From: Apostichopus japonicus
Taxonomy: Eukaryota; Echinodermata; Holothuroidea; Aspidochirotida; Stichopodidae
NCBI RefSeq assembly: GCF_037975245.1
Contig: NC_092577.1
Span: forward strand, 33,314,398-33,378,397
Length of the DNA stretch: 64,000 bases
Direction: 5' to 3'
Each line of letters begins with the position of its first letter. The first letter of the stretch is position 1. This document shows, one piece after another, positions 458-48,646 of the stretch. The notes beneath the pieces are model-generated. The model ran no database searches. It was not told where the DNA came from and was given only the letters and a program-made list of their open reading frames with translations. The translations under genes and the position numbers were made by a program.

Positions 458-3400
458 CTAAAGACAGTAGAGATTTCCGCCGTAATTCACGTTGTCGATA
501 GCTCGCTGCACCAGTTGCTTTGAGTATTGAGGGAAGTGAAGAAGAATAGCTTCCAACACTTCTTTATCAGTCAATAATTGGAACTCATTTTGGGCTGGGT
601 CCTCGTACTCAATCCTCATAGCTGCAAGGCATCCCATGGCCGCCAAGTTTCTCTGGTACACAATGCTGAGAATCCTGTTACCCTCGTAGCCCACCAAGAA
701 TGCAGTTTGGTGTATAGTGGGCACAAGACCTGGTATGCCAAACCTGTAGCCTCCCTTTTCTAAGTAGAATGCTCTATCTCTCCTAGTATTTAACCTATAA
801 ATAAGCTGTACTTTCCAAAAGGTACCCTCCGATTCGAGTACATGCTCTGAGGGAGCCGTCTCGTCGGCCGCCTCTGCGCACCACAGGAGAATGCCATGTT
901 CCCTTTTGAAAAATTTACTTCTCATGAAGTGAAATTTGTAGACTTGGGATTCCGTCTCAAAATCGAGAGGTATGGCCTGGTAGAGGGGTCGTCTGGTCCC
1001 GGGCTCAGCTAGGTGTAAGCTCCCAGGGAAGGTGAGGTTACATACAACTATCCCACAGTGGGTGTCAAACTGGTCTTCTCCAACGTTATTGCCACCCACA
1101 TGGAAGGTGTCATAATCCATCAGATCCAAAAGAGCTTTGGAGAAGGTGTTCTTGTAGAAACAGTGCCCTCCTTCCCGCCGTAATATCGCCATCTTGCATT
1201 CTTCGAACGTGGGGTTATGTTTGTCGTTCATCGGCTGAGATACATGTGGCAGGTTTGTAAATGGAAGCTTGGTGATCATGTTGTATATGTACGTGTTCAG
1301 AAATGCCATTGGATCTCTCTCTATTAGCTTCTCGGGGTTGGGTATTTCGAGTACATTTTCAAGAAACGACAGGGCCTCCTCTTTGGTCAACGGGTACGGT
1401 ACGTCGTCTGGTTCCACGTCCTGGAAAAATGGGGAACAAAAAGTCACACCTTTTTTTAAATGCTAAAAATTGTGGAGACTACTTTTCTTGGAGGTCCTTA
1501 CGCTTAAACTTATTCCCATACATTTACGATTTTTGAAATAAACTCAATGATTTCAGTGACCAAAAAGAATTGCTTTGAGTTAGGGTGGAAGTGTAACGAC
1601 AAGTTTCTTTTACAAAGAAGAAACTTTTACGGTGAGGTGAAGTTTAATAATTAAAACTAATTTTCTTTGGACTATCCACAGGTGTTCCTAATTTGACTTC
1701 AGTATTCTGTTATTGAATTGTTCATTGAGATTTACACCAAAAGCCAAGGTTTCCCTTGAAATCAATAACCTGTGGCTCTAGGGGGTGCCACACTCCCCCC
1801 TTCCCCTGAACCCCACAAGTAGTGCATGAAACTTCCAAGAAAACTATCTAAAAATAGCACCATTGCTATACAGATATGTATGACATATGTACTGTACCCC
1901 TTACTTCAATATATGGTTCACAGTTGATGAATAATCAATACTTTAAATGTTCCAGAAGGCTGAAAGAGTTTGTGCCATTCTTGAAGAGTCTCTCAAATAA
2001 AGTTGACCAGAAATTGTAAATGTTTGCTACCGCAGTCTTCGCAAGTTTACTTCTTGAAATTGTTCAAATTATGTATTATTTGCCATTCAGTTGGTCACTA
2101 CCCCCCACCCCCCCCCCTGCCCACCCAATCTTTAACCCCACAAGTAGGGCTAAGGACTGTATTTGCTCTTCCAAACAATCTTTCCTAGAGCAAAAATCCC
2201 TGGGGATTGCAAGGAATTGATCTATGCATTTTATGATTGATTTTATGAAAAATAGGGTAATTAATATAATGCTTTGTAATATTTCACGTCCAACAAATCA
2301 GAAACTGTTTTGCTCTGCCAACTGTGAACTAAATTCTCCTTAATAGATCCTCAGAAAATTTCAAACTTGTGATGTTTGGAACAATAGACCAGTTCATAGA
2401 ACGTCATTTCTGCTCTTGCTGTGTAGAACAGACCTTTATGAAATAGAGCTACATGATGCTGCACCATGAATCGTATGTTAGACCACATGTTAGACTGAGT
2501 CGGCAAGCTTTACCCCACCACGTTTGGTTTGACTATTATAGCGAGAAACTTGTATTGCAGTGCTTGCAATGTGTTAACACCGTGGTTTTCAACCTTGGGC
2601 TCGCGGGCCCATTTGGGCCCGCGAAGCCGATTTTGTGGGCTCGCGAGCATTGTCCCAGTAATGATTAAAAATTGTGGCATTTTTGGGGGCTGGTGGCGAA
2701 GGCACATGATGATGTTTCTTAGGAAGCCTCTTCGATGAAACCTTGTACAACGGGTAAAATTTACCCAACCCTAACCCTATAAGACTAGTATAAGAGAATT
2801 CGGTAACTCCCACCAACCACTGCACACTACGTATTTACCAAGGTTATGATGTGTGGAAGCCTTGTTCAATCGAACCCAGCTCTTCCCAGTGCACGCAGCA
2901 AGTATTGCGCGATTTCTATAGACAGCCGAAGCCTTGAGGTCATCACGTACAGTTACCCCGCATAATGGAGGTGCACTGGGTGCTCTCGCAATGGTAGAAA
3001 ATGACTTTCAAAGTCGCCGTAGCGTGGGCTTAGCATAGGCGCGAATGTTTGTTTGGAACGCGAGTGGGCGGGGCGATAGGAGAATGACGTCACACTTCGG
3101 CTCTCTATACAGGCAGTGAAAACAATGCCTAACAGGCGCTGCTGACTGTTGTGTGCTAATACCACAGACCTTGGCGGTGTGTTTTAGTTAGCAGTCCCTG
3201 GTCTGACACTATCACTAACAACAAACCCTGTGCCGTGCACATGATCAGTCGTGAAGGATACTGTACACCAGTGAAAATTTAGCGAACGCAATGGGACCTA
3301 CGCTAATCAGAGGATATCATGAGGAATACCTCAACATCGGATTCACCTATATATCGGACAAAGGTGTTATCAAACCTCAGTGTGTTGTTTGCGGAAAGGT

Positions 3401-6400
3401 TTTATCGGCGGCAAGTATGAAGAAACCAAATCTTCAGCGACACTTTACTACTGAACACCCACAACTTGCTGACAAAGACCGCGCCTATTTCGAGAGGAAA
3501 AGGCAAAATTTGAATACACAGAAGTTGGACTGCACTGGTGGAGTCTATCGCCGAAATGCAGCACTGCTGGAAGCTTCATTTGTCATTGCATACCAGGTAG
3601 CCAAGAAAAAGAAACCTCACACCATAGCCGAGGAATTGGTGATGCCCTGTATGAAAGAGGTTATGCGGATACTTATCGGGCCAGACCAGGCGAAATTATT
3701 GAATGGAGTTTCCGTTTCTGACAATACTGTTCAGCGACGAATCGTGGATCTGTCCAAAGATATTGAAAAACGTGTGATTGCGGAGATCAAAAGTTCGCCA
3801 TTCTACTCAATAGCATCCGATGAATCTACGGATGTCGCGTCCTTGAGTCAACTGATGGTATGGGTGCGTTATGTGGTCGAAGACGGTTTTAAAGACGAAC
3901 CATTGTTTTGCTCCCCACTTGAGTTGACTACAACCGGTGCCGATGTGTTTTTGGCGATTCAGACATACATCAACGAGAATGGAATCGGATTTGACAAACT
4001 CGTTGGGAGTTGCACCGACGGCGCCCCTGCCATGTTGGGTAGCCTGTCCGGTTTTCAGACGCGCCTGAAAGAAGTGGCACCGCAAGTGAAGACTACTCAC
4101 TGCATGCTTCACCGCCAGGCATTGGCTTCCAAAACACTCCCGCAACAGATGAAGAATGTATTGGATCAGGCGGTTAAAATTGTGAACGCTGTGAAGAAAA
4201 ATCTGCTCAATACTCGCCTGTTCAGGAAACTGTGTGAAGCAGTGGCGGAGATTTCTTGTCAGAAGTGGGGGGGTTGCAGGCCATTGATGAAATAAAAAGT
4301 CATAACTGCTGGCTCACTATCTAAGTGGAGCGCCACCATAAGTTGGCGCGAAGTGCACAAGAATTTTTTGGCAAATATTGCCTCCCAGATTGCAGTAAAT
4401 GGCACTGCCCAGGCCTTGAAAAGCTGGATTTAACCAGGGGTGTATGCAGGATTTTCTAACCCGGGGGGCGCGTATTACTATCTAAGCGGAGCGCCACCAT
4501 TGGTTGGCGCGCAGCGTACAAGAAAATTTCTGGTTTTGGTACCCCCAGATCACCGGAAATGGCACTTGAAATGGCTTGAAACTGACCAACCATATGTACA
4601 CTTTTGCCTGACAACCAAGTTTTTTCCAAATACTTTTTTTCTCATCTATAACCTTTTTGAAGATTGTCACCAGTCACACATCATGTTCGACTTCATCACA
4701 TATCCTGTGGATCATTGCTTTTGTAGGTGATTCTTCATCGCGGCCCACAATATCCGTCAGCCCCACTGTTCAGAATTTGAAAATTCACAATTCTCGTGAA
4801 TAAATTCACTTCAAAACATACCCATAATGTTGCACAAAATATCATCTATGGACAACCGATATAGAAAAACTTCCTTCAAACCCTAACAGACGGGTCAAAA
4901 TTGCACGAGTATGATGAAGTATGATGAAGAATGTTGGTTAGGGAATTTTCGAAAATTCAGACGGCTACTAAAAAATTTCGTTGAAGGAAATAAAAATATA
5001 CCAGATATTTCCGAATCCGAACACTACACACATCGACAGTTTTGAGCATGGGCGCAGATCTGTCTTGGATAATGGTGGGGACGCGTGTCTGTTCTATGAC
5101 ACTATCTAAGCGGAGCACGACCATGGGTTCGCGCGTAGCGTACGATTTTTTTGGGCAAATATACCTCCCAGATCGCCGGAAATAACACTTCCCAGACCTA
5201 ATGATGCTCCTAAACCTCCTTAAGTTTTAGATCTCATGGCTTAGAAATTTAGTTTGGAGAAATACATGGGCGTCTGCAGAAAGAAAATCAGGGGACAAAT
5301 AACCCAAGTAGACTTTTGTATATACGATGGGTCTGGGGTCCTCTCCCAGAAAACAAATATAGACTGCGGCAAATGTGATTTCCGTCCTATATTTAACAAC
5401 TGTGGATAAAATACAATAAAATGAGAACTGCTGCATGTCATTTGCACAATGCTGGATCAAACTGCGCCAAAGTTCAATACAGGGGAACTTGAAATGCAGC
5501 TATTGGTCAAGACAAATTGGTGGGGACACGGTATATCATGTCCCCACTACTGAAAAAGTTGGATGTGATATCTGCTGTTTGCTTTACAAATTCGAATAAT
5601 TTTGTCACTGTTCCTCTTTCTCTTCCCGTTTTCTTGCCGTATTTCTACTCCATCCTTTTCTCCTTTTCTCTTTCTTCTTTTTCTTTTCCTTCCTTCACCT
5701 CGTTGAAGTTGGCAAGTGTATACAGTTCCAAAGCTATTCAACAGCAACAAAACGTTATTTTGTGTATGTCTGTTGTGGGGTGAAGTTAGCGCTATGAGCT
5801 ACAAGTTCCAATGCGCAAGGTGGGGGAAAGGGGCTAGAAATAATGCGTGGGTCAATTCTAACTCGGTTTTCGGTCGTTAATTGTTGATGTAGCCTACCAG
5901 GTAAAAGGTTGAAATGACTAACAATTTCAAATTTAATAATTTGATTTATTATGCCATTTGGAGCACATAACATAGGCTATAACAAAACATTACTGGCAAA
6001 AACTAGGGGGGGTTGATTGTGTGGGCCAACCCCCCCTCTTCAAAAAGTGGGGGGGTTAAAAACCCCCACCCCCCCCCCTGTTTCTCCGCCAGTGGTGTGA
6101 AGAGATGGACGCACAGTTTTACAACCTGCTTTACCATACTGAGGTGAGGTGGTTATCCCGTGGGAAAGTGCTCATGCGACTTTTTGACCTCAGAAATGAA
6201 GTCGCTGAATTTCTACCAAGAGTAGGCAAACGTGACTTGGCGGCACATCTGTCAGATGACGTGTGGTTGGCTAACCTATGCTACTTGACAGACATATTCG
6301 AGCGCTTGAATATCCTCAACTCGTCGCTCCAAGGTAGAAAACCAAACGTCTTGGACTTTCACGACAAACTGCGCGGATTCATGGATTTGCTGGACATCCT

Positions 6401-9400
6401 TATTTCCAGAGTTAGAGCTGATCGATTCACGAGCTTCCCTCGACTGAATGAGTTCCTCGAGCAGACTGAGCCAATTGGAAGGATTCCTGGCATTGACGAA
6501 CATTTGGAATCACTGAAGTCTGAGTTGCGGCGCTATTTTCCAGAAGTTGATCCAGAGAAATTTGATCTGGTGCGGAATCCATTTCTCGTTAGATCAGCAA
6601 CGATGGACGATAACGAGCAGGCCCAAGAAGAACTTGTCCTCTTGAAAAACGATTCGGCCGCAGAACAACTGTTCAACAGCCGGCCACTATCCAATTTCTG
6701 GTGTTTAATGCGCCAGGAGTATCCGGTTTTGTCTGCCATCGCAATCAAAACTCTGTTGCCGTATCCTTCTACATACCTATGCGAAGACTCATTCTCCACA
6801 ATGGCCGCGATGAAAAGGAAACAAAGAAACCGCTTGGATATTGCTGCAGATATGCGCGTTGCGCTATCTGAGACTGAGCCGGACATACAAAGACTCGTTG
6901 CCGAAAATCCGGCCCAGCCATCCCACTGAAATACCCCAGACTTTTCAGTGTCATACCTCAGTTTTCAATATTCGAATGCAAGTAGGCCTATTGTTTCAAG
7001 TAATATGCCATCAACTACTTTTAACCGCTACTTATAATTTTGTAAACCAATTTTAATTGTTTCTCAATTTGCAAGCTTCAGAAGGTAAATGACGCAAAAT
7101 ATGTGAGGGACAGCCTGAACAAAAATAATGAGGCTTATGTATATGCGTGGAAGAAAAGGATATTAGGCAGAGGTTTCCCCTCTAGGGAAATGGGGACGGA
7201 GTTAGTTGAGTGTTAAGTTAACACAGAAAGCTGTATTTGGGGGAAACTCGCTGGTGTGTAGGCTAATTTAAGTGCACCAATCTCAATAAATACAATGACG
7301 TTCGACGTCCCTGTCACAACCTGTGAAATTAAATATAGGAACACATCATTAATGGGGACAGGTGACGTCTCGATAAGACAGCATGCGGTCCGTGTTACGT
7401 AAAGTAATGGTGATGACTAATGTCGGCATTTATCTGGGCTTTAAGGCGTTTTGGTACCAGTAGTAATAAAAACCAAAATAATTTAGTACTAACATGCCTT
7501 TATACGACTAGCCATTGATCGATCAATCTTCTAATTATCGGTTAATAATAGGTCAAAGATCCAAAGAAAAAAAGTGGATCATATTTGTCTACACTTGTAA
7601 AAATTGCGATAATTCGAAGGAAAGGGCTGTAGTAGAATCCTATTTTCAATACAATTAACCGTTAATTGTATTGGAAATAGAAGGATCCTACTACAGCCCT
7701 TTCCTTCGAATTATCGCAATTTTGACAAGTGTAGACAAATATGATCCACTTTTTTTCTTCGGCTCTTTGACCTATTCTACCTCGAATATGACCAATAATT
7801 GGAATAACTTATACAGCGTGATATCTATACAGTCCGACACTTCTATCAGTTCTCCCGTTCTATTGTCATTACACAAAGTATTATTACGTTCTCTTTATTT
7901 GTTAATTTGTTTTCAATAAATAGAAATTACCTCACCGATTTGAAATATATCTCCTTTAATACTACTGGGCCTCATATGCACACGTCAAACGGTTTTGCTG
8001 CTTTTTTATTGCATTGTTCATCTCCATTTTTCTGCATTATTCTGATAGTGATAACGGTCACACATTTCTTATCAAACCAGTACCATTGAGGGTTGCAAGA
8101 AATCTTTGAGATAGGCTCTAATTGGGCAGTACCTGTCATCTGATCACGGACAGGGACGTAGCCAGGGGGGGAGCAGGGGGAGCGACCGCTCCCCCCCTTT
8201 CAGTGTCGAAAAAAATGTTTAAAAACTGTTGTTTTTTTAGCATGGTATTTTGTCAGTGCTCTTTTGATCTTGAATACTCGTCAGCTCCGTTAACTCAATT
8301 ATAATCGTAGTAACATTCACGCCGACTGATTCAACTACTTACTTAGTTTGGCAGATGCAATTAGCTAAATTTAGCCTATAGCCTATTACAAGCCTACAGT
8401 TGGCCACGCGTAATAAAATACATATTGCCTACCTAACCGCACTCTATGGAATGTCACGAACCGTATGCACAACAACGTCGACAACGTTCGTTCTCATCCT
8501 TTCTATGATTCGTCCTAAGTTGTTGCACAACAGCATGTTATGAAGCTAAGCTAGCAATCGTACGTGATACGCACTTCCTATAAATAATTATTACACTGCT
8601 AATACACTGCGATAACGATATTTGTTTTTAGGCCACTGCATATCTGGCTATATTCCAAAATATGAAAGTTTATATTGTCCATCAGTTAAGTTGGTCAAAT
8701 GTATTAAAGTCCAGACAATGGACAATAAACAAGAATCATCCTACTTGAAAAATTGTAAAAGAGCACTATGTTTGTCTTTCTGGTATATTATGTAAAAGAA
8801 CATGTAAAAGAATTCAAACAGGAAACAAAATCTGCTGATAATATGATATCATATGATCAGGGGCGTAGCCAGTATGTAGCACTGTGGGCCCGGGCCTACA
8901 CTTTTTTTTGGCCAAGTTATCTTTTTTTTAAAACACCCATATTTCAAATCCATAAGCTTGCTGGACGAGTTTAAGAATCTAGACAGGAATAACTATTGAA
9001 ATGAACGTAGCAAAAATATGGCTTAATTAGGTGACCTAGTCTTCTAATTTAGGCTGTCATTTCTATCGCGTGCCGTTTCATTCAACACTCTACCCGCCGA
9101 AAAAGACTATAGGATCCGATCTTGTCAGTGTTGTAACATCTAGTTAAGAACCTGTTTACGCAGATAATATTTCAGTTGAGAAAACAGTTGAGAAATTTGA
9201 ATCAGATGGCAATCGTCGGATAGCTCTCGCCTTCTCTTATTAGGCTAACTTAAACATTTACAGTTGTATCAAAGACAATTACTGGCTATAGTTGTATCTA
9301 AGACATTTCTGGCCTATCTACATATGTAACTACAAGTATCAGCAGTTGAAAAGTAAGACTACTCTGTACATGTACCTTGCTAATTTTAAATACATTATGT

Positions 9401-12400
9401 ATTATTGAATTATGTATCTTAACTCGTTTGTTTTTTTGGTTAAAAAGTGATATTGAATGAGGTGTCCCAAGTTAGCAAGAGGCCATGGAACCAGCATGAA
9501 CACTCGGGAAGGACCGTTTCCGGCCATCTGGGGGGTTTGTAAAACCAAAAATTTTCTTGTACGCTCCGCGCCAACCGATGGTGGCGCTCCGCTCAGATAG
9601 TCGTGCCTAAATTTGTGAAAATCGATATCAATCGCAAAAAGTGCTCCCCCCCTTTCAAATTCCTGGCTACGTCGCTGATCACGGAGGAACATACATAGCT
9701 CTGATTGAGTCCCCGGGTCACTTGTGTCAAGAATACACTAATAAACGCTGTGAAATTGATTTTATGAAGTTGATAACTTTGCAGGGTAGGGTATGGGCTC
9801 GCGAGGATGGCTCGGAAGACGAATTGGGCTCGTGATCGAAAAAAGGTTGAAAACCAAGGTGTTAACACGTTCCCTATGTTGTAGTTATCTAGTGCTGTTA
9901 TATTTTAAGTACTTCAGATGGAGATTTCCGCTTTATATCTAGTGCGGGCGCTAGCACTATGCACGAATGTTAAGGGGTTACCTTTGGCATAACCAAACAG
10001 TGATGATATCGATGTTCAACAAACTTGTTTAATTGGTATAGAACTGAACATATGAACACATGACTATGAATGCCTTTAATACAACCTGTTCACAGTAATA
10101 ATTAGTAATATCAGATTTTAAATGATGCTTAAAAGCTGTGTATTTAGAAATGGACAGAATCAATGCTCCGTGATTACAGGCCTGTAAAAAGAGGGCAAAA
10201 CGGAAGCTCATTGCCGGGAAATCTTGAAAACTCGCGGGAAATCTCACACGCAGCAAGAAAAAAAAAAAAAAGGTTAGAGAAAGAGCCAAAGAGGAAATAA
10301 AATTTAAAAAAATTATAAATAAAAAATCAGAAACACTAACTTTAGTGTCTGGGTGTCTTTATTTCTCACTTGAAATAACCCAAAATAGCATCATAATTAT
10401 TTAATACACTTAATGGCATCGCCGCCGCAAGCCCGCTGAATCTCTCAAGCCAATGTTGGAAAACCTTGTTCAATTTCCCGCGAACACACTGCCGATTTCC
10501 CGTCGGTGTTCGCGCAGTACCTGGGAATTTTTCCCAGGTACTGTACATTGCCAAACAACTGTGAGCGCTTCCCCTGTCTAACACCTTACTTTTAACCTTT
10601 TTTTTTTTTGGCACGTTTCCAAGGAACGTTTTATGTAGTACACGAGGCACAGCCCATACGTACATACACGCATATCACGATATCAAGGCCCCTATAGCCA
10701 TTGCCATCTTTATTATGAAAGTGAACCTTGTAATAACTTATGTTTTAGGCCACTTGGCATGATTAACTAAATGCTAAATATTGTTTCCATGTTCTTGTAG
10801 AAAACGTCAACTTCGCAAAATACAGTTAGTTGTGTTTTTGTAGTTACGTGAGATCCGTAACCGACAAGGTGGTTAGGCTATATTTGATATGCACTTAACT
10901 GTGGTAGGATATTATTTTTTCCGTATTTTTGGAAATTCTAGAAAATACTTTCTTTTTCCCCCGCTTAACACCAAATGTGGTCTTACGGTTTATTCATAAA
11001 TGGATGTACTAGAGCCTTGTTTACATGACATTAGTTGCATTTAAGACGATATGCCAGTTTCGCGTGAATTTTTCGAAAGTGTTTTGCTCGATCTTTCGTA
11101 AAATTTGAAAGGTGTACCAACTTACTTTTCGTACACAATTGGTAATTTCTCTACTGATTTTCAGAGTTTTTATCTCCATACAGTCAAGTATATACGTTGT
11201 GTATTGAGTATAAACTAATCGAGAATGCAACTTATGCAAGAAAACAATGCGGGGATTTCCAGCAGACAATTTTTTTCTTTGCGGGATTACTGAGTCAGTT
11301 GAAGGGAATCCCGCACCTTAGAGGGAACACTGAGCTGAAGTCAAATTCTATGATACGACAGAAAACGTTTATTTTCTAACATACAATATAAATTTTTAAA
11401 AATGTGGAATGGCAATATTGTTGTTCAAAACATTTCCCGCCAGGCTAATTTTTTACAGCAACCTTCCCGCGCTGTGCCGTGGGTGTCAGTGTCACATTGA
11501 CATTGCCCTTGTGAGTGGTTTGGGGACACATCATTACTCGTTATATTGTGACAAAGATTGCGCGCACGCAGAACTTTTCGTAGGTAGTGTGATGCACTGA
11601 TTGTCAACATGTGATTGTCATTTTAAAAAGTTTCGATATTATTTGTACGTGAATGAGAGTGAAGTGAGGAGTGGTTTTTTTCTCGTGGAGGCTTTGATAA
11701 ATTGATAGGGGTAGTCGGGTAGGCCCACACGTCAACAAAAATACAAAATGGCTTCGTTTATTTAGTCTTTATCAGAAATATTTGAAGAAGTGTAAAGTCT
11801 GCTCAGTTTGATCGATCCAACACAATATAATAATAAAGGCTTACTGGGCGTCCCCATTGAAGGATTTTTATTTCATTTGTTCTATTTTTATCGTGAACCA
11901 TATCCAATTTATCTCTCTGCTCCAAGCCATGCGGCACACTGTACATAAAAACTGATGGGATCCATCGCGCACTCCATTGCTAAAATACACGTGCTCGCTC
12001 CAGCTCCACTGATGTGTAGAGATCAGTGGCTCACTTGCATCTCATGTAACTTTACGATGTTTGTTTACATTACATATTAATAATTGATGTGGTACAATGT
12101 GACAGCCGGGTTATAGATGTATAATAAATTATTATCAGACTGGAGTGATTGCTTGAGATGAGACTACTTTGAGTTTTGTCAAGGTAAGAACTCAAGAAAC
12201 TGACACACTAAACCAGTTTGTTTTAAAAATTATATTACCTTTTAAGTTCAAATTAGCACTGGTCTCAACGATTGCAAGTTGTTTTAAATCGCCAAAAAGG
12301 TGCACCAAATGGCGCCAATTGCATCCTCATTTTTCAAAAATCTGTGCCTTGTGAGGGGGGCACACCCCCCTCACGCACCCCCCTGCGCCGCTGAAGCGGC

Positions 12401-13116
12401 GCAATGGCTGCTCAGCAGCCATATGGTTCGAGGGAAATTATACCTTCCTTGCAGGGAAAAAAACATTTTTTACAGCCCTGGTCCGTGAAGTTGGTGAACA
12501 ACCTCCGTACATGAAAGATTCCCGTATATAATGTGCACACTTGCAAATAACGAACCATTTTACACAGTTAATTCCCATTGACATTTGTCATTAACAAATT
12601 TCATGGACTATTAGTACGTGATTTCTGTGGCATACAATCTACCCAATGGAGAATTCCCATTGACTTAACTGTGTAAAAGTGAACAGATCGTCGAGACAAA
12701 GGAAGGTTCTTTTTATAAAGATCTCACCAAGATTGATGTTTGTAGTTTGATAGTAGATACTTTGTTAATATTAACACGTCTATCTCTTGCCCCCGGCAAC
12801 GGGGCAGTCGTTAACACCTTGCGTGCTTTTGAACAGAATCTATATGCTAGTATCAATACACAACGACTCCACACAAGGATTGCAAGACTTACCACGGGAT
12901 GAAACTTTTATTCAGTTACAGCTAGCCAAAGGCTTTGCAATTTCTAAACAGAAACTCACTTACATGTGGTAGAGTTTTCTGCTGCTGAACAGCATACACT
13001 GGACTAGAGACAAGATCTATTGAGCCTTCAAGTGTTGATTCCTGGTCTGAACGACGGGTAACCTGAAGAATCTGTCTCAGTCGGCGATTAGGGGCTCGGT
13101 CAGATGCGCCTTCCAT
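458..13116 (-). CDS. Arylamine N-acetyltransferase-like gene 1 (two exons, giant intron)
   Basis: Likely an acetyl-CoA-dependent N-acetyltransferase of the NAT fold, cytosolic by default; the substrate cannot be read. Exon 2 is 1420-458 (acceptor TTTTTCCAG before GACGTGG). The proposed exon 1 is 13116-12964: 51 codons starting MEGASDRAPN and ending ...KTLPH at donor CAT|GTAAGT, phase 0. The product would be 371 aa; classical animal NATs are about 290. Exon 2 holds the nucleophile motif RREGGHCFYKN (Cys about residue 138), His in DTHCGIVV (about 172) and, where the triad Asp is expected, Glu in HLAEPGTRRPL (about 190). The Met nearest the long reading frame (1447) is intronic. The intron (12963-1421, 11.5 kb) contains a nested hAT transposon. 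Exon 2 is solid; exon 1 rests on its position, matching phase and a donor like gene 2. The Asp-to-Glu change may reduce or alter activity. Confidence 0.7.
1945..2035. repeat. Direct repeat flanking the NAT-like terminal exon (right copy)
   Basis: Partner of the repeat at 13-110. It starts with the same GTTCCAGAAGG block and ends in a shared GCTACCGCA segment. It lies inside the large intron of NAT-like gene 1. The rest of 1448-2571 is AT-rich intron with a poly-C run near 2101-2117 and no recognisable gene. Confidence 0.6.
4240..6094. mobile_element. Non-autonomous hAT-like element inserted in the transposase gene
   Basis: It starts CAGTGGCGGAG and ends CTCCGCCAGTG (reverse complement CACTGGCGGAG), an 11-bp terminal inverted repeat with one mismatch. 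The flanking 8-bp duplication GTGTGAAG lies at 4232-4239 and 6095-6102. The 1855-bp interior has no transposase reading frame. It carries three copies of a subterminal module (around 4300, 4480 and 5105) and an internal second end-like sequence CAGGGGTGTATGCAGG near 4437, so it is probably itself composite. The 3' edge has long poly-G/poly-C runs. Confidence 0.9.
4294..5200 (+). repeat. Subterminal hairpin module, three copies
   Basis: A block of about 90 bp recurs at about 4310-4400, 4470-4565 and 5100-5195. It is built on CTATCTAAGCGGAGCGCCAC, then CCATNGGTTGGCGCG, AGCGTACAAGAAAATTT, and CCCAGATCRCCGGAAAT. The GCGCCACC and GGTTGGCGC parts can pair as a short hairpin. A fourth copy lies reversed at 9525-9605, at the right end of the 8151-9677 element. 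Translating it gives the shared peptide YLSGAPPxVGAxRTRKFLVL, which I regard as an artefact of DNA conservation. Confidence 0.75.
7547..7776. repeat. Near-perfect 230-bp hairpin (two ~110-bp arms, one-base spacer)
   Basis: Left arm 7551-7659 and right arm 7661-7772 are reverse complements with only a few mismatches; the centre is AATTAAC-C-GTTAATT. The arms contain GTGGATCATATTTGTCTACA and GGAAAGGGCTGTAGTAG. It lies in the 3' untranslated part of the hAT element. No target duplication is evident. It could be a snap-back MITE or an inverted duplication, and a transcript would fold into a long double-stranded stem. Confidence 0.85.
8151..9677. mobile_element. Non-autonomous hAT-like element nested in the hAT transposon
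   Basis: Left end CAGGGACGTAGCCAGG, right end (reverse complement) CAGCGACGTAGCCAGG: 16 bp with one mismatch. A perfect 8-bp duplication ATCACGGA flanks it at 8143-8150 and 9678-9685. It is 1527 bp with no transposase frame. A further left-type end, CAGGGGCGTAGCCAG at 8858, has no partner and marks an older nested or truncated copy. The right end carries the subterminal hairpin module seen at 4294-5200, so the two nested elements are relatives. Confidence 0.9.
9525..9605 (-). repeat. Subterminal hairpin module, fourth copy
   Basis: Reverse-strand copy of the module at 4294-5200: ACTATCTGAGCGGAGCGCCA, then CCATCGGTTGGCGCGGAGCG and TACAAGAAAATTTTTGGTTT. It sits about 80 bp inside the right end of the 8151-9677 element, the place expected of a transposase-binding or end-processing region. 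Confidence 0.75.
10195..10560. other. Hairpins and TTTCCCGC-like motifs within the NAT gene 1 intron
   Basis: A perfect 13-bp stem CAGTACCTGGGAA at 10515-10527 pairs with 10531-10543 across a 3-base loop. Just upstream CGCGAACAC pairs with GTGTTCGCG. Several GCGGGAAA/TTTCCCGC motifs occur near 10220, 10235 and 10476, and again near 11431; they resemble E2F sites. No gene is recognisable here. A MITE interior is as likely as a regulatory block. The remainder of 9868-12350 looks like ordinary intron. Confidence 0.4.
12351..12423. repeat. Three consecutive perfect hairpins
   Basis: GTGAGGGGGG-caca-CCCCCCTCAC is followed by GCGCCGC-tgaa-GCGGCGC and then by ATGGCTGCT-c-AGCAGCCAT. All stems are perfect, 7-10 bp, within 73 bp. 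It sits in the NAT gene 1 intron about 540 bp downstream of the proposed exon 1. Probably part of a MITE end region; function unknown. Confidence 0.7.
12558..12678. mobile_element. Possible 121-bp MITE with 14-bp inverted ends
   Basis: TTTTACACAGTTAA at 12558-12571 is the exact reverse complement of TTAACTGTGTAAAA at 12665-12678. AATTCCCATTGAC also occurs near both ends, in direct orientation. No clear target duplication was found, so this is only a candidate. Confidence 0.4.
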
Positions 13117-15581
13117 AATTGTATTTCTTTCTTTCTTCTGAATAAATCTCAGCTTTACACAACAGAGACCTTGTTACATGTAGTGTACCACTCCAACCAA
13201 TATCTGAATAACTTACCACTATTCTATTTAAAGTGTTTAAATAATGTAGGTACCTTGGTGCAAGACAACTCTTCACTTATTCCATATTTGTTTTACCGAA
13301 AATATACCTCGCTGACTCCTTGCTAGATTGTTTTAGCTTAAGCTTTCGTCCTTCTTCCCAATGTTGTCTGTACTTTTATCAATTTAAAAGATCATCCAAT
13401 TTACGATTGATCCAGCGTGACTTTCACAAGTTCTTGTGGTAATTATTAGCTTCCAAGCCTAGGTGCATGTGAAAAGTGTGAATGCTTTCTAAGTAATTTG
13501 TTTGAAAGTGTAGGTGCCTTTCAGCGGATGTCTGTTACGGAAGTGAAGGCTCATTTAGCCCTGGAGTGGTTTGGTTGTGCAATAGTACATTGTAACACTC
13601 TGTACTAGCATGCTATAAAGCCTAAGCTGTCTCTGTTTACAGAACACTTGTGATAAAAGCCGACAAGTAAACATGTACGTTGATCCTGTGCAGGTCGTTT
13701 TGAGATCCATATCGCTACCTCGTGCCAACTTCCCATTTAACTTGGATGTTTGCTAATTTGCAGTTGGACTAATTAGTATCGAAAATATATGATAAGTTTT
13801 CACAGATAGTTTGGAGCCGAAATGACTGAATTAATAGTACAGTTTATGAATTTCCACCTGGGTTCCCCACCCCCCGCCCCCCAAATGATGGTGTAAAATA
13901 CCTGTAGCTGTTCTTGGCATTACTCATGATAAAACCTTGTCAATGCAATGTTTATGATGCAGAACATATTTTATTGAAAGTTACATAATATGTTACTTAT
14001 TTCAAATTGTTTTGTAAATGGGTACATGATATATGTATTCTCATGTTTATAGGGTTCCTGATTTAGTGGTCTACAGGTTTCTTTCCTTTTGGGGACAGGT
14101 CTGTAGATATAATCACAATATACAATGTTTGACATAAAAAGTACTGCACTAATGACATTTTTGTACTGATTTTAACAACACACATTATAATATTATTTGA
14201 ATATCTCATCATAGGGCTGCTTTAAAGGTGAAACAAACTTAACCATCATTATTGGGTATTCTGATGTGAGCAAATGCCCCTCTCCCTCCCCACTGCCCCT
14301 CATCACCCCACCCTTCACAGCCATGATAGGCAAACCAAACCATCCTCATCAGCCTATGTGATATTCCGTTATGGGCAAGTGCCCCTCCACCCCCCACCCC
14401 CTCCCCCACGCTGCTCCTCATCACTCCACCCTTCACAGCCATGATTAGCAACCAAACCATCGTCATCGCCTATGTGATATTCTGTTATGAGCAAATGCAC
14501 CTCTCCCTCTCCCCCTCACTGCCACCTCATCACCCACCCTTTACAGCCATGATAAGCAAACCAAAACATCACCACTAGCCTATGTGGTACTGTATGACAT
14601 CACCAAATGTTGACCACTCCCTGACACTACACTTTTTTTTCCGGCTACATTTATTTTACTTGATTTGTTCTTCATCTTGAGTTACTTCAAACTATGGAAA
14701 ACAGCCAGCCAGAGAGAATCTCACAGCACAGTGAAAACATCTGTCAATATCTATAGTATTAGCAGTGTACTAGGAAGTATTTTATATACTGTAGAACAAC
14801 TTGATCACAACAGTGACAAGACCCCCCCCCCCCCCCTGGCATGTTTTAGAAATTCCTCATTCATGAAGATTTCCTTTATTACTTGCAAAGTAATGTCATT
14901 GAAAATCAAACTCGCTAAAATGAAAAACACACAATTTTGCCAAAGTTCAGATTGGATAGTTTAATCACAGAAAAACTGGTGACAATACCTTTGTAAACCT
15001 TGCAGTGGTGTATACAGTTAAGTATCAAATGACTAGATCATTGTCTAGAATGTTTATCTGCTTCTTAGGAGCGAGTGCATGGCTGGTGAGGTCTTCCTGT
15101 AGCTGCACTGGATATGAAAAAAGTAATTTCTGTATAATTTTAAAGTTTTACTTAAGAGGATAGCTCCTCTGAAGGGATTCTTCTGAGCACTTGGATTGGG
15201 AGAGGAGGGTCATTTTTAGAACAAAATTCCCATGTACTGCTTTAAGTTTCATAAATCAAGGGTGTTCTTAAGCTGGTAACATCTTGCACCATGCCACACC
15301 CCTACCCCCCCCCCATCCCCCACCGCCAATGCTTATTAGTGTTTTGCTGTCTGGTATTTCCTGACGACTAAATGTTCCATGTAAATGGAGCTGAAAGTTT
15401 AAATTATTTGAAATTGTTACCTAAGTTTCTACGATACTTTTAACAAATAATTGGACATATTTGTAAATTATAGTTTCCAATGCATACCATAAATGGTTGG
15501 AACTCAGTACTTACAACAATCACGTCTGAATACCTTTCAAGCTCATACTTAAATATTTGCCAATATTTTACGATTTGGAGT
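13117..15581. other. Spacer between NAT-like genes 1 and 2
   Basis: Holds the likely promoter of gene 1 at its left end and the 3' flank of gene 2 at its right end. Apart from the tandem repeat at 14237-14610, poly-C runs near 13868, 14822-14836 and 15306, and AT-rich sequence, I see no gene. Confidence 0.5.
14237..14610. repeat. Minisatellite, units of about 107-117 bp
   Basis: About 3.4 copies of a unit carrying AAACCATCNTCATC, GCCTATGTGATATTC, GCAAATGCCCCTC and CACCCTTCACAGCCATGAT. Starts lie near 14240, 14337, 14454 and 14562. The weak antisense reading frame across it is a by-product. Confidence 0.85.
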
Positions 15582-17764
15582 TCAATAGTTGTATATGTTA
15601 CGTACATAATTAGCGTTCACCAGGGCATTCTCTATCATCTGCATTGTAAACTGAGGGAATTCTTTCCCCATCAATTCCAAAAATTCATCCTTGGGAAGAA
15701 ACATCATCTCAGCTTGAGACGGGTCAGAGTGTTGGTATTTCAGAGCAAACATGTCACCTACGGAGCCTATTATCACACATTTATCGTTGACGTAACCAAA
15801 GACTCCGATATTATGGAATATGTGTGGGATCATCGTGGGGAAGCAGTATCTGTATTTCATCCGGTTTAGCCAGTAGGCCCTGCTTCTCGGTGCTCGTAAC
15901 CTATAAACAAGCTCAACCTTCCAAAAGCTTCCTTTGTCTTCAAAGACACTCGGCGAGGCTTTCTCTGGTCGAGGGACTTGGGAACATGAGAGGAGTATCC
16001 CGTGATCTCTCTTGAAGAATTTTACTTTAATGTAATTAAACTGATAAACAGGAGATTCCTTCTCAAAGTCCAGAGGGATAGCTTCGAAGAGTGGTCGAAT
16101 GGTCCCAGGGTCCACCAGGTGTTGGCTACCGGGGTGGCTGAGGTCGCTGACGATTGTACTCACATGACTGTCGAATAACGCCTCACCGGGGTTGTTCGCC
16201 CCGACGTGGAAGGTTTTGAAACCCAGGACGTCTAACAGGGCTTTTGAGAAGATGTTGATGTAGACACAGTTGCCTCCATAGCACTTCATCATGGCCTCTT
16301 TGCATTCTTGTAAAGTTGGGCATGTCAGTGAGGTCAGGTCTTGTCCTGCTAAGATGTGTATGTTGGTGAAAGGAATCTTGACGTTCATCAGGTGAGTGAA
16401 GCTGTCGAGAAACTCACAACGGTCCTTTCGGAGAAGTTCCTGCGGTTTGTCCATCGCCAGAACATTTTGGAGAAACCAAAATGCTTCATCTTCTGTTAAG
16501 GGATACGGTATATCATTTTCTTGACATGTCTGTGCAGTTTTGAGGAAAAACAGTTGAAGAGGTTTAATGTCGATAAAATATTAGTAGTAAAAGTGAAAGC
16601 AGAGTGTTATTGCATGGAAGCTAAAATTTCAATGATTATACATGTTGACAAAATAGATACAATGCATTGTCCTGTGACACATGACCTTTAAGTTTGATGG
16701 GGTCTGGGTGATCAAAAAAAAAAAATTGTCTTTTCTTTGATAACAAACCTATTATTCCCCCCCCCCCCACCCCTAGGACCTCGCGAGGTGGATCAGGGGT
16801 TAAACTCCTTTACTACTTGGGGTCTGGGTGAGGGGTAAAGGTTTTAGGGCAGGTAATATTTACCAGCTTAGCATTGTAACTGATCTTGGGAATCTCACTT
16901 TTTAGAGATTTCCAAGAACTACTGTAAACCCAGAGACTGATGCCCTAAACTTTGAGATTTACAAAACATTCTCCAGTAGTTTAAACATTAAAATATCCAC
17001 AACTCTGCAAATCTGCATTTTTTTTTAACTTTTACCGGTTTAAGATATTTACACATGAGATTTTGAGAAAATACCGCTGGAGATTTATCCCAAAAATTTT
17101 TTTTAGGGCTCAACAAATCTGAAACTAACAGGGAAAATAGAGTAATTTTGGCAACTGATAAATCCAGCTAAAACAAAATAGCACATTATCAAGGAAGAAA
17201 GAAACCTTTTTGGTTTTTACAATGTCACCGCTGTAGGCTAAATGTAATAATGACATAAAACAATTGTCATGCTAGCAAATAGTGCCCTGCAGAGCACAAT
17301 GTTATTGTAGCACTCATGTATACAATTCTATCCCACCAAGCAAAGTAAGTGTTTACCACATTTCTAACGCATCTCAGCCATTTCCTCTCAAAATTGAAGG
17401 GAAAATTAGTAAGACATCAAGTTTGCCTGGAAAAAAAGCATGTGAAATTGTGTGAGCATGAGTGTGCCTACAGTAAATTAAAACCGTGAGAGTTAACCTG
17501 TATGTGTTACAGTGCACTTATTTTAATTCTTGTAATTTTGAAAAAGCAACCACCACAATTTTACTGATTAGCGATACGTTTGACTCATTTAAGACTGTAC
17601 AATTTAATAGTTCTTACCTGACTTACATGTGTAGAAGACAGGTAAACAGTTTGAGTAACTGGTTTCTGAATCACTTCGAGACTACGGTGTGACCTCGCGG
17701 CTGGCAACAGCATCCTTTGTAGCCGTAGTAACCGTCTTGATGCATTCATCCCTGCCACAGCCAT
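15582..17764 (-). CDS. Arylamine N-acetyltransferase-like gene 2 (two exons)
   Basis: NAT-fold acyltransferase with an apparently complete Cys-His-Asp triad. Exon 1 is 17764-17627 (46 codons, start MAVAGMNAS), ending at donor CAT|GTAAGT; a second in-frame donor CAG|GTAAGA lies nine bases further on. Exon 2 is 16529-15582, after CTGCACAG. Joined, it is about 361 aa. Catalytic motifs: CYGGNCVYIN, FDSHVSTIV and HLVDPGTIRPL. The exon 1 segment RLLRLQRMLLPAARS is Arg/Leu-rich and lacks acidic residues, so it could be a mitochondrial presequence; that is inference. Gene 3 has the related segment RLFQIQRALLPTMSG. The first in-frame Met of exon 2 (16454) is 25 codons inside the exon and is not the start. 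A 241-bp patch of exon 2 is nearly identical to gene 3. Confidence 0.78.
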
Positions 17765-19523: not shown

Positions 19524-20881
19524 TTAATATTTATTCATATTGTGACTATATTTAATGTTTGCAATTGCATTTTCGATCATCCTTAGTGGATACTGAGGAA
19601 ATTCCTTTTGAACGAGGGCAACAAACTCCTCCCTGGAAAGAAATCTTACTTCGACGTCTGATGGATCAGAATGTTCCAGTTTCATTGCGAAGAGCTTACC
19701 ATCGGAACAAAGTGCAGCACACCTGTCGCCAATGAATCCGAAAATGCAAACAACTTCGTGAATGCGAGGATCTAACGATGGAAAATTATACACATATTTT
19801 ATCCTATCCAGCCAGTGCGCCCTGCTTCTTGGTACATGCAACCGATAAATGAGCTCAATCTTCCAAAAACATCCTTCGTCTTCAAAGATATTCCGGGAGG
19901 CTTTTTTTGGCTCAGGGACTTGCGAACAGGAGAGGAGTATCCCGTGATCTCTCTTGAAGAATTTTACTTTCACGTAATTAAACTGATAAACAGGAGATTC
20001 CTTTTCAAAGTCCAGAGGGATGGCTTCGAAGAGTGGTCGAATGGTCCCAGGGTCCACCAGGTGTTGGCTACCGGGGTGGCTGAGATCGCAGACGATTGTA
20101 CTCACATGACTGTCGAATAACGTGTCACCGGGGTTGTTCGCCCCGACATGGAAGGTTTTGAAACCCAGGAGATCTAGCAGGGCTTTTGTGAACATATTGA
20201 TGTAGAAACAGTTTCCACCGTAGCCCTGCAACAAAGCTTCTTTGCATTCCTGTAAAGTTGGCAACCGGAACGTCACCAAGTTTGGTGTGGATATTATGTG
20301 GAGGTTGCTAAACGGAATCTTTGTGTTCATCAGTAGAGTAAACCTGGCCAGAAACTCATGACGATCTCTTTCCAGAAGTTCGTTTGGTTTACTCATGGCC
20401 AGAACGTTCTCAAGGAAAGAGAATACCTCGGCTTTGCTCAGAGGATATTCCACGTCTTCGGGAGTGTCCTGGACGGGAGACATTACAAAGTTGTTATTTA
20501 AAACGATGCCCAGTAATTTCAACAGATGGATTTACTTTGTTCATAAACTTGTACCATCTTTACGGACTGGCAGTTATCGGTCAGACATGCAAAAACACAT
20601 TTCACAAATTGTCAATTATAGTTCAAATTTGTAACACAATTCTATTTTATAAAAAAAACTATGCTCTATGGTACCTCACTTGAAATTTTTGAGCCAAAAG
20701 GCCTAGAAGTGATACAAGAATGATGAGAAACTTAAAATTAATGATTCACCTGGTCTATTATGGTAGACAGCTGGGATGAAGTGTGCAAGAGTTTTGGGTC
20801 ATTGCCAGACATCGTTGGCAGTAGCGCCCTCTGTATTTGAAATAACCGTCCGGTTGCTTTAGTTGGCTCCCTTGCATCCAT
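19524..20881 (-). CDS. Arylamine N-acetyltransferase-like gene 3 (two exons)
   Basis: Exon 1 is 20881-20750 (44 codons, start MDAREPTKAT, end ...STIIDQ at donor CAG|GTGAAT). Exon 2 is 20468-19524 after acceptor CCCGTCCAG. The intron is only 281 bp, phase 0. The product is about 358 aa. Triad motifs: GYGGNCFYIN (Cys), FDSHVSTIV (His) and HLVDPGTIRPL (Asp). The usual NAT pattern has Glu two residues after the Cys; here all three copies have Tyr, marking a divergent subfamily. The nearest Met to the long reading frame (20522) lies in the intron. It is the most upstream member of the minus-strand array. Family call is firm at motif level, substrate unknown. Confidence 0.8.
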
Positions 20882-45600: not shown

Positions 45601-46110
45601 AGTGATTTGGAGTTTTGATACATAGGCCTGCGTCCAAAATCTTAACAGAGCGCCACAAATAAGAAATTCCGCAAAACCACGGTATACACGCGGGAGTCTA
45701 GGGTTTTACAAGAGTAGGCACACTTTATTCAGCTAATTACAGATGGCGTCCCATGGATCATGTCTGTCAGTACTTGGCCTCCCAAAGCAAGCGACCATTA
45801 TATGTATAGCTATATTCTGTGCTTTGTAAGTGAACTCAAAATATGCTCAAATTTGTCTCATCAAATTGCCTGTACACAGATTGCATTAAGAAAATGAAGT
45901 AAAAAGGATACACTTGTAGAAGCAAAGAAAACACAGTGCCATAAAGCGTCCGAATTTTAGTCCGTGACAGCGCTGGAAACTGACAAAGTTTGAAGTAACT
46001 CGACATCCAACCTATGATATATTAGATCTATGTGATAGCGCGTAAGATGTGTTTGCGTTATTAGAATGGACGAATTACGCTGTAGTACGTTAACCTCTCC
46101 GGTGTTCTAA
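42630..46110. other. Intergenic region upstream of DDX54
   Basis: The DDX54 promoter lies in the first part. Apart from the MITE at 43098-43453 and poly-C/G runs (43623, 44330), I see no gene. TAGGCCTA-type words occur near 42500 (within DDX54 intron 1) and 45625. Confidence 0.4.
43098..43453. mobile_element. hAT-like MITE, 356 bp
   Basis: Ends CAGTGGCGTAGGAAGG and (reverse complement) CAAGGGCGTAGGAACC, with an exact 8-bp flank TGTTGTTG at 43090-43097 and 43454-43461. The interior contains two GATGCAATTTGGTGC blocks 60-70 bp apart and poly-G runs. It has no coding capacity and resembles the ends of the nested elements in the NAT intron. Confidence 0.88.
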
Positions 46111-46981
46111 TACGGAGAGCCAAACGTTCCATAAATGTCGAAAAAGAAAGTGAAGTGTCCAAGTTAATATATATATGTCCAAATCGATATCAACATGTTA
46201 CAATTCGATATCAGCATGTTACAATTCCATATGAACATGTCGAAATAAAATACAATATGCCATTGCGTCTATCAACATGTCAAATTCAACATCAGCATGT
46301 CGAAAACTTGTAACAGCATGCCATTACTACATTGGTCATGTCAACATGCTATATTTACGTCGTGCTATAATTTTGGCACTTCGGCGCGCGCCAACGTTTC
46401 GTATATGTCGAGATTTATTTCAGTATGTCCAAAACTTGTGTCAGCATGGTGAGCGAAGAGTAGTGAAGTATTGCCATGACAACGTTGCACATGGTTCGTG
46501 TCGTTCACACGGTACTATGGTTGAATATACTGTAGCGGAAAGCTACGACTTTTCCTTAGTGAGATACGTTTCGTTCCCTCAGGGGTTACATCTGTTGCGC
46601 TCCGTGGAGGTAACGAGAGATGTTTATCCGGAACAGGAACAGGAACTGATTACGTAATTTTGCTATATCGATGTATTCCAGTGACTGGCATAGGCAGGCA
46701 CGGCGGTGGGTGTGTGAGTCGATCCCATTGGTCGCAACTCATCGTAGTTATATACAGGTAGTCCATGATTGGTCTAAGCCTTTTTTTTACAGTTTATGTA
46801 CGGACGTGTGTATACGGGGGTTATTTCCGGGGTATTTAATGAAGGGTTCTTTCGTAAATGAGTGAGTCAGAGAGTCGGAGAGTCGGTCGAGTGCAAGACG
46901 AGGAACTTTCCTTCCGGCGGCTCGTGGTAAAGCCTTTGATATTTGCCTAAGTCCAAACAAATGTGTTTAGGCATTTTAGAG

Positions 46982-47160
46982 TGCCCGACATCTGCGCTGC
47001 CCGAGTCCAGCGGATTGCCCGACACCTGCGCTGCCCGAGTCCAGCGGATTGCCCGACACCTGCCCTGCCCGAGTCCAGCGGATTGCCCGACACCTGCCCT
47101 GCCCGAGTCAAGCGGAATGCCCGAAGCCTGTGCTGCCCGACACCGGTGGATTGCCGACGT
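46982..47160 (+). repeat. 34-bp minisatellite inside the foldback element
   Basis: Unit CCCGAGTCCAGCGGATTGCC plus CGACACCTGCGCTG, about five copies, with the period fixed at 34. It is GC-rich against AT-rich surroundings. All three plus-strand frames stay open across it (PESSGLPDTC, ARVQRIARHL and similar), which follows from the repeat and is not evidence of a gene. Confidence 0.88.
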
Positions 47161-47645
47161 TTAGATTGCCCGACCCTTGCGCAGCCCCAGTGTTATGCCT
47201 GCGTATCCTTGGGTTGTGCCCGACTCCAGTACGTTATATTGGGCAAATGTTAATATTGTGTATTATACGCTGTAGATGTAGAACGAGATGAGAAATTATA
47301 CTTTTATTAAACATACAACTCTGGTGTCTGCCTCCTGATTTAGAGTTAATCTGTATCCGTCCCCCATCTACCTCCCCTACCCTCCTCCAGTTGGTTTCGA
47401 GACAGGTTTTTCACTACCAGACGTTGGCGGCGTTACAATACGTTTTAAACTGCTGCAGTAGGTGGAAAATATACCATTGAGAATATCTTCAAGCCCTTAT
47501 TCGTATTAGTCGCGCCAAAGCTTTGTCCAAACAAAGCAGTTCATTTAATATAATCATTCATAATGAATGTTTTGCAAGAAACTTTTTCTTCCATACCGCG
47601 TTTGGTTGGAGAAATAAACCAATGCGTCAGAGAAAACCAGCTTTC

Positions 47646-47928
47646 GATAGCACCACTCCTCCGAACTCGTCTAGAGGCAACGTTTGACAGTAACAGTAAC
47701 ATGGTAATAAATTGAAAGTTTGTAAGAATATTCTTGGGGAAATTTCACTAGGCCCCTTTCTCCCTTTGATCCAGTCCGTGCTCTGTCTTTGGGATTTACT
47801 TCAACTAAGTTCTACTTGTATTTAGCCTATGCTAAGTTAGGCAATGCCTAGACTAAGGCTAAAGTTAGGGTATACATACTCTTATTTCTAACGTTGCCTC
47901 TAGACGAGTTCGGAGGCGTGGTGCTATC
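47646..47928. repeat. Internal inverted repeat (39-bp arms)
   Basis: GATAGCACCACTCCTCCGAA, continuing through CTCGTCTAGAGGCAACGTT at 47646-47684, is inverted at about 47890-47928 with one mismatch. The right arm abuts the inner end of the 410-bp arm. Could be a 283-bp nested MITE; no target duplication was found. Confidence 0.7.
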
Positions 47929-48646
47929 CCCATAGGACCGTGTGAACGACACGAACCATGTGCAACGTTGTCATGGCAATACTTCACTACTCTTCGCTCA
48001 CCATGCTGACACAAGTTTTGGACATACTGAAATAAATCTCGACATATACGAAACGTTGGCGCGCGCCGAAGTGCCAAAATTATAGCACGACGTAAATATA
48101 GCATGTTGACATGACCAATGTAGTAATGGCATGCTGTTACAAGTTTTCGACATGCTGATGTTGAATTTGACATGTTGATAGACGCAATGGCATATTGTAT
48201 TTTGTTTCGACATGTTCATATGGAATTGTAACATGCTGATATCGAATTGTAACATGTTGATATCGATTTGGACATATATATATTAACTTGGACACTTCAC
48301 TTTCTTTTTCGACATTTATGGAACGTTTGGCTCTCCGTATTCTAATGAAATTGCAGTAAAGGTTGTAGTGAAATAGATGTGCAGTATCGTGCACATGGTT
48401 TCCAGGGTGGGGAGGGAAGGAGGTGGATTCAAAGTTTCCCGGACTGATTTAGTTAGCAGCCTGAATCGTTATGGAAAGACTATGATTCTACTCAATCGAG
48501 GAAGGTGAAGATGGCGCTCTTAATTATAATAGCACAACGACTAGTCGTTTAACTCGATCCTTTTAAGTTTACTAACAAAACATTGACAATGTCTACAAAA
48601 CATTAAATAACCTTATTATTGCATTATTGACCTTAAATTCATCAGG

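Follow-up and report, generated by a model that had tools for sequence, protein, structure and literature searches.

How one hAT transposon came to hold two others, in what order and through which transposases, is the question raised by a locus of the sea cucumber Apostichopus japonicus, analysed here within a window of 64,000 nucleotides (contig NC_092577.1, positions 33,314,398 to 33,378,397). Almost certainly, a long-form Buster hAT element inserted near NAT-like gene 1 and subsequently received two non-autonomous hAT elements of foreign families. Three nested insertions had been proposed in an earlier note, and they are present at the coordinates it gave, which exclude the target-site duplications (TSDs); all three have perfect 8-bp TSDs and inverted ends. 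The nest comprises the following features:

2572 to 2579, no strand: left TSD of the outer element, TGTTAACA, a perfect pair with the right TSD and a fit to nnnTAnnn
2580 to 9859, plus strand: outer element, a putative Buster-type hAT of 7280 bp with copies on contigs C19, C16, C9 and C17
2580 to 2596, plus strand: left terminal inverted repeat (TIR) of the outer element, CCGTGGTTTTCAACCTT
4232 to 4239, no strand: left TSD of inner 1, GTGTGAAG, within transposase codons
4240 to 6094, plus strand: inner 1, a putative non-autonomous hAT-type element of 1855 bp with TIRs CAGTGGCGGAGA and CACTGGCGGAGA
6095 to 6102, no strand: right TSD of inner 1, GTGTGAAG, the pair being perfect
8143 to 8150, no strand: left TSD of inner 2, ATCACGGA
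8151 to 9677, plus strand: inner 2, a putative non-autonomous hAT-type element of 1527 bp with TIRs CAGGGACGTAGCCAGG and CAGCGACGTAGCCAGG
9678 to 9685, no strand: right TSD of inner 2, ATCACGGA, the pair being perfect
9843 to 9859, plus strand: right TIR of the outer element
9860 to 9867, no strand: right TSD of the outer element, TGTTAACA

The outer element belongs to the hAT superfamily, as an 8-bp TSD, short TIRs and a transposase C-terminal dimerisation domain are all present. In the window copy the inverted ends match at 16 of 17 bases (CCGTGGTTTTCAACCTT vs CCTTGGTTTTCAACCTT). When 36 loci of the outer family were examined, 3 lacking ends under the cut-off were left out; 31 of the remaining 33 carry a perfect 8-bp TSD, and all 31, from copies and short derivatives with the window copy counted, fit nnnTAnnn. 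This pattern is the TSD consensus of the Buster family in the excerpted descriptions of that family (PMC3517528; PMC3499496), and on these TSDs the outer element is probably Buster-type. It shares with the Buster family (TcBuster, Drosophila Mar and sea-urchin Sp-Buster) the 8-bp nnnTAnnn TSD, short TIRs and a transposase with the hAT C-terminal dimerisation region. The outer family also has short derivatives with internal deletions, of the kind described for Mar (PMC3517528; PMC3499496). The left terminus differs, being CAGTGG in Buster and often CCGTGG here (22 of the 33 loci with both ends, window copy counted), and so does the 3′ region, where the long form carries a palindrome of 230 nt.

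Inside the outer element, the transposase gene lies in two parts:

3291 to 4239, plus strand: 5′ part, with weak Spin-doc zinc-finger and DUF4371 matches, both below the Pfam cut-off
6103 to 6929, plus strand: 3′ part, with the hAT C-terminal dimerisation region (PF05699, 27.1 bits against a cut-off of 21.4)

The gene is cut by inner 1 and both halves are otherwise open, the 5′ part being about 98% identical to sister copies; in the C16 and C19 sisters the two halves are contiguous in a single frame. A search of PDB sequences matched nothing to the 5′ half; with the 3′ half, Hermes and transposase chains came up only at E 0.7-0.8, behind unrelated dehydrogenases (E 0.07-0.13). The outer copy was probably autonomous on landing, and inner 1 is probably what silenced it.

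The two inner elements each belong to a multicopy family in which both ends were found at 28 of 28 loci examined (window copy counted). The inverted ends of inner 1 match at 11 of 12 bases (CAGTGGCGGAGA vs CACTGGCGGAGA) and its longest listed reading frames are 96 and 88 codons, while those of inner 2 match at 15 of 16 (CAGGGACGTAGCCAGG vs CAGCGACGTAGCCAGG); with its 8-bp TSD and short TIRs, inner 2 can probably be classed as a non-autonomous hAT-type element. TSDs are perfect at 27 of the 28 inner 1 loci and at 25 of the 28 inner 2 loci, the other 3 being imperfect. The nnnTAnnn pattern appears in only 4 of the 27 perfect TSDs of the inner 1 family and in only 1 of the 25 of the inner 2 family, which suggests that both inner elements were inserted by transposases other than that of the outer element. 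Inner 1 resembles hAT elements of the Ac type, and the non-autonomous elements derived from them, in its 8-bp TSD and CAGTGG-type ends. The TSD preference of Ac is nTnnnnAn; in the inner 1 family, TSDs lean to T at position 2 (16/27) and A at position 7 (18/27), with both together in 8/27. Three papers searched for the nTnnnnAn preference contained no instance of it.

The sites of both inner elements can be seen empty in sister copies of the outer element. Among the other transposase-bearing copies found, 4 of 4 hold GTGTGAAG and ATCACGGA once each at the corresponding positions. The earlier expectation of uninterrupted genomic copies matching across both inner junctions was borne out. Three of these, on C19, C16 and C9, are 97-98% identical to the window copy, cross both sites without interruption, hold each TSD once and show 0 mismatches over the 30 bp ending in each inner TSD. 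The fourth (C17:18462909-18470801) has its own TSD, CTCTAAGA, which also fits nnnTAnnn and is additional to the 31 counted above. At the inner 2 site, 182 bp from the right end of the outer element, a single ATCACGGA was likewise present in 5 of 5 short derivatives traced (from 12 loci, L013-L024). No empty site was found for the outer insertion, whose left flank is single-copy in the assembly except for a 165-bp match at 82%.

The sister copies also bear on the size of the intact element, for which 3.88 kb had been proposed. The arithmetic is sound, since removal of both inner elements with one TSD copy each leaves 7280 - 1863 - 1535 = 3882 bp, but the uninterrupted copies measure 3256-3263 bp (n = 3), and the 40 candidates scored, out of 71 from a first look, included no uninterrupted copy of 3.88 kb. 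Besides the window, the long form was found in one other transposase-bearing copy, that at C17:18.46 Mb, which is itself interrupted and deleted; it is partly common to short derivatives. The long form is distinguished by two features:

7020 to 7679, plus strand: long-form-only stretch, in the window and the C17:18.46 Mb copy
7547 to 7776, no strand: near-perfect palindrome of 230 nt inside the outer element, with 95-nt arms 96% complementary (full length 93% with a gap)

In place of 7020-7679, the three 3.26-kb copies have a piece of approximately 33 bp that matches 7346-7381 in reverse complement, and they resume just beyond the palindrome centre. It could be argued that the 3.26-kb copies are original and that the long form later gained about 0.62 kb including the palindrome, as a further nested insertion; all three uninterrupted copies are short, and the palindrome resembles a foldback unit. 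This is nevertheless unlikely, as an inverted filler from the interior of the long form together with resumption past the palindrome centre reads as a deletion. The palindrome is moreover retained in the derivatives of about 1.2 kb, no TSD is seen around it by eye, and no palindrome-free copy with intact flanks occurred among the matches of the scored candidates. The hAT elements include internal-deletion derivatives and ones with replacement filler (PMC3260210). The outer family is like Ds of the maize Ac/Ds system in showing internal deletion and filler DNA, whereas in the 3.26-kb copies the element has supplied the filler from its own sequence, in inverted orientation.

Neither the palindrome at 7547-7776 nor the in-frame split of the transposase had been described in the earlier note. 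Situated downstream of the transposase gene, the palindrome is kept in derivatives of about 1.2 kb that have been mobilised, and it coincides with the end point of the apparent deletion with inverted filler behind the 3.26-kb form. It could be a structural device steering the birth of derivatives, for instance a hairpin that shapes excision-gap repair or yields silencing RNA, though this idea is improbable.

Nesting places the outer element before each inner element. The earlier statement that nesting fixes the order holds to that extent, but nesting does not say which of the two inner elements came first. Private substitutions in the window copies (26 of 2722 sites for the outer element, 8 of 1398 for inner 2 and 4 of 1752 for inner 1) rank the outer element above the inners, the direction predicted by nesting. 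With 28 copies of each inner family and only 4-15 outer comparators, the outer element differs from inner 1 at p 0.004 and from inner 2 at p 0.28, the outer count being inflated because it has fewer comparators. For the outer count, 11 of the 12 derivative loci L013-L024 were used and one comparator was missing from 1 of 9 segments. With 8 copies per inner family, inner 1 has 14 private substitutions in 1837 sites and inner 2 has 10 in 1508; outer vs inner 2 then gives p 0.39 and outer vs inner 1 gives p 0.09-0.52, the latter comparison having also been run with 9 in place of 14 after neighbouring changes were merged by hand. Inner 1 vs inner 2 (4/1752 vs 8/1398, p 0.15, 28 copies each) does not separate the two. 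Recent activity had been read from the perfect TSDs; the activity does appear recent, but perfect 8-bp TSDs alone are weak evidence for it, and low sister divergence is better. With private substitutions below 1%, the insertions look young, and no absolute date follows.

A different order of events would apply if the whole compound were one mobile unit that moved with the inserts already inside, the inner insertions having occurred elsewhere. Since the outer element has complete termini and a complete TSD, movement in the loaded state is possible in principle, and the inner ends are intact too. This reading is very improbable, given that neither insert occurs in any of the four other transposase-bearing copies, that a 7.3-kb unit lacking an intact transposase would depend on one supplied in trans, and that the outer element has no fewer private substitutions per site than the inners. 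A misjoin of three repeat families into one locus by the assembler has a negligible chance of being right: such error can occur among multicopy families, as all three are, but each inner element sits exactly between duplicated 8-mers that are single in sister copies, and matching TSDs with complete ends are unexpected from wrong joining.

When the window was scanned for inverted 14-mers (at least 12/14 matching) flanked by perfect 8-bp repeats, 5 structures were recovered, including the outer element and inner 2, with inner 1 (11/14) just below the cut-off of 12/14; 12 first-order Markov simulations gave 1 structure in total. Chance origin of the ends and TSDs is ruled out by this comparison and, far more strongly, by the sister empty sites.

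The nest sits upstream of one exon of the neighbouring gene:

458 to 1420, minus strand: main coding exon of NAT-like gene 1 (PF00797, 19.6 bits, below the cut-off of 22.8), with a possible acceptor AG just above 1420

It had been placed in an intron of this gene, a claim that is unproven as the first exon of gene 1 was not found. Candidate first exons can be proposed from sequence for NAT genes 2 and 3, and when the proposed first exon of gene 3 was used in tblastn and an ungapped scan of the minus strand across 1448-15500, no convincing match appeared. A genome search with the main exon of gene 1 gave 32 matches including itself, the nearest others, at 47% and 43% identity, belonging to the same cluster and none of the remainder exceeding 41%; since there is no close paralogue (best 47%), paralogues do not reveal the exon structure. 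The nest could thus be intronic or lie 5′ of NAT-like gene 1.

Cut-and-paste transposition is established for hAT elements and by analogy presumably applies to these insertions. In the favoured history, a long-form Buster-family hAT would first have inserted at TGTTAACA, on the upstream side of the NAT-like gene 1 main exon. Inner 1, mobilised by a transposase other than that of the outer element, would then have entered the transposase reading frame and broken the gene, and inner 2, likewise mobilised by a non-outer transposase, would have inserted near the outer right end, before or after inner 1. Many elements interrupt others in mammalian genomes, as reported in an interruption analysis of nested transposons (PMC2517846). 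The present study is like that analysis in using nesting as evidence, and unlike it in that genome-wide statistics are replaced by a single locus with direct empty-site proof. The nest records three insertion steps in an animal genome, a history that is well resolved, and is otherwise ordinary transposon biology. Its sister copies serve as built-in empty-site controls, target preference tells the transposase systems apart, and the locus is suited to presence/absence typing among individuals.

Three hAT-type insertions form a nest in the window (C17:33314398-33378397; the genome searched comprises 671.6 Mb), confirming an outer Buster-type element and two inner insertions from other families.

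2580-9859, outer element, whose termini are CCGTGGTTTTCAACC and (inverted) CCTTGGTTTTCAACC, flanked by two copies of TGTTAACA
4240-6094, inner 1, within the outer element, flanked by copies of GTGTGAAG
8151-9677, inner 2, within the outer element, flanked by copies of ATCACGGA
3291-4239, 5′ part of the outer transposase, with DUF4371 and Spin-doc zinc finger matches, both below the Pfam cut-off
6103-6929, 3′ part of the outer transposase, with a hAT dimerisation domain above the Pfam cut-off
7547-7776, 230-nt palindrome in the outer element

The 8-bp target-site duplications (TSDs) are perfect in all three insertions. Scanning for inverted ends with duplications yielded 5 structures in the window versus 1 in total over 12 simulated windows, with inner 1 falling slightly below the cut-off on its inverted ends.

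The earlier note had proposed this nest from inverted ends and perfect TSDs, with uninterrupted genomic copies and empty sites as its check; sister copies show such sites for both inner insertions. Searching the genome with the outer element's 5′ part yielded at least 42 matches, and the 40 scored of 71 first-look candidates include three other near-full-length copies, each with its own perfect TSD: C19:1.17 Mb (3263 bp, GTGTAGTG), C16:8.95 Mb (3256 bp, CTATATAC), and C9:12.04 Mb (3258 bp, CTCTAAAA). In all three, the inner-1 site is uninterrupted with a single GTGTGAAG, as is the inner-2 site with a single ATCACGGA. Compared with the window, they show 0 mismatches in the 30 bp ending with each inner TSD, and 1 and 2 mismatches in the following 30 bp. 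Deletions and a separate 4.2-kb insertion disrupt a fifth copy (C17:18462909-18470801); both of its inner sites are empty, with bases missing directly before the inner-2 TSD. Both inserts are therefore absent, with single TSDs, from all four other transposase-bearing copies found among the 40 of 71 candidates scored. A single ATCACGGA also occurs in the five short derivatives with traced segments (among 12 loci, L013-L024). No empty site for the outer insertion was found in the assembly. The 4.2-kb insertion of the fifth copy (L012; C17:18463641-18467875) shows inverted ends of 20 bp (TAGTCAGGTGGCTTAGCAAC) and what looks like a CTA duplication of 3 bp. It sits close to where the transposase gene begins and is independent of the inner insertions, so two of the five transposase-bearing copies found, the window's included, are interrupted.

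Inner 1 separates the two parts of the outer transposase, which share one frame, one codon apart, in the C16 and C19 copies. The frame is open over 590 codons in the C16 copy, stops early in C19 and is split in C9. Since the window's coding sequence is open except for inner 1, this insertion is suggested to be what broke the gene. Among 36 outer-family loci examined, ends were found at 33 and perfect TSDs at 31, all 31 reading nnnTAnnn, the pattern published as the Buster TSD consensus (PMC3517528, PMC3499496). At its left end the window copy has CCGTGG, which recurs in 21 of the other 32 outer-family loci with ends and is not a private mutation.

Removal of both inner insertions with one TSD copy each leaves 3882 bp. 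The full size proposed earlier holds as arithmetic, but the three uninterrupted copies found are about 0.62 kb shorter. In these, about 33 bp matching the reverse complement of 7346-7381 stand in for 7020-7679, and the sequence picks up again directly beyond the centre of the palindrome. Because the C17:18.46 Mb copy and derivatives of about 1.2 kb both carry the palindrome too, the long form probably came first and the 3.26-kb form probably arose by deletion with inverted filler. The 33 outer-family loci with ends comprise 16 of 543-548 bp, 8 of 818-827 bp, and 5 of 1204-1220 bp, plus the three copies of 3.26 kb and the window's own.

The inner families lack the outer TSD pattern, a central TA occurring in only 4 of 27 perfect TSDs for inner 1 and 1 of 25 for inner 2; thus, transposases other than that of the outer element very likely inserted them. 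Inner-1 TSDs favor T at position 2 (16/27) and A at position 7 (18/27), a bias that may resemble that of Ac-type hATs. Both families are multicopy, with at least 77 match pieces for inner 1 (40 of 6321 candidates scored) and at least 45 for inner 2 (40 of 2208), and no reading frames above 96 codons were listed in either insertion. Despite differing ends, the two contain a common module of about 90-100 bp, found three times in inner 1 (4316-4421, 4477-4581, 5101-5204) and once, inverted, in inner 2 (9514-9601). Within inner 2, CAGGGGCGTAGCCAG at 8858-8872 matches the inner-2 terminus at 14 of 15 positions and may be one end of a different, truncated hAT. In 30 of 40 inner-1 copies scored, about 90 bp missing from the window copy interrupts the sequence at position 1323; copies with perfect TSDs occur in both length classes.

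Nesting places the outer insertion before each inner one, as the earlier note held, but leaves the inner pair unranked. Window-private substitutions number 26 at 2722 sites in the outer element (4-15 comparators, varying by segment), 8 at 1398 in inner 2, and 4 at 1752 in inner 1 (27 comparators each), a direction that agrees with nesting; with 7 comparators, the inner counts are 10/1508 and 14/1837, respectively. With the larger samples, the outer element differs from inner 1 at p 0.004, a value accorded no weight since fewer comparators inflate the outer count; its comparison with inner 2 gives p 0.28, and that between the two inners p 0.15. In the smaller samples, the outer comparisons give 0.09-0.52 with inner 1 and 0.39 with inner 2. 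Such counts give no absolute date, which would need a substitution rate. Perfect TSDs, previously read as a sign of recent activity, alone carry little age information because most sampled copies have them (outer 31/33, inner 1 27/28, inner 2 25/28, all drawn from best matches).

The surrounding NAT-like genes are as follows.

458-1420, minus, gene 1 main exon, below the Pfam cut-off
15582-16529, minus, gene 2 main exon, below the Pfam cut-off
19524-20468, minus, gene 3 main exon, alone among the three above the Pfam cut-off
17764-17618, minus, plausible first exon of gene 2 by sequence, upstream, then a GT donor
20881-20750, minus, plausible first exon of gene 3 by sequence, upstream, then a GT donor

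The nest does lie upstream of the gene 1 main exon, but its earlier placement in an intron is not borne out: a sequence search found no first exon for gene 1, so the nest could be intronic or upstream of the gene. The HLVDPGT of genes 2 and 3 is HLAEPGT in gene 1, a difference presumably falling on the catalytic Asp position of NATs. Counting gene 1, NAT-like matches in the whole genome number 32, of which 28 are free of internal stops; many are clustered (C2, C3, C17, C18, C22), together an expanded family. Elsewhere in the window, an inverted repeat (46109-48341) has 412-nt arms, 100% complementary, spaced by 1409 nt and each containing 21-bp tandem repeats; it resembles a long-TIR or foldback element of very recent origin.

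The nest comprises new members of well-known kinds of element, with natural empty-site controls for both inner insertions.
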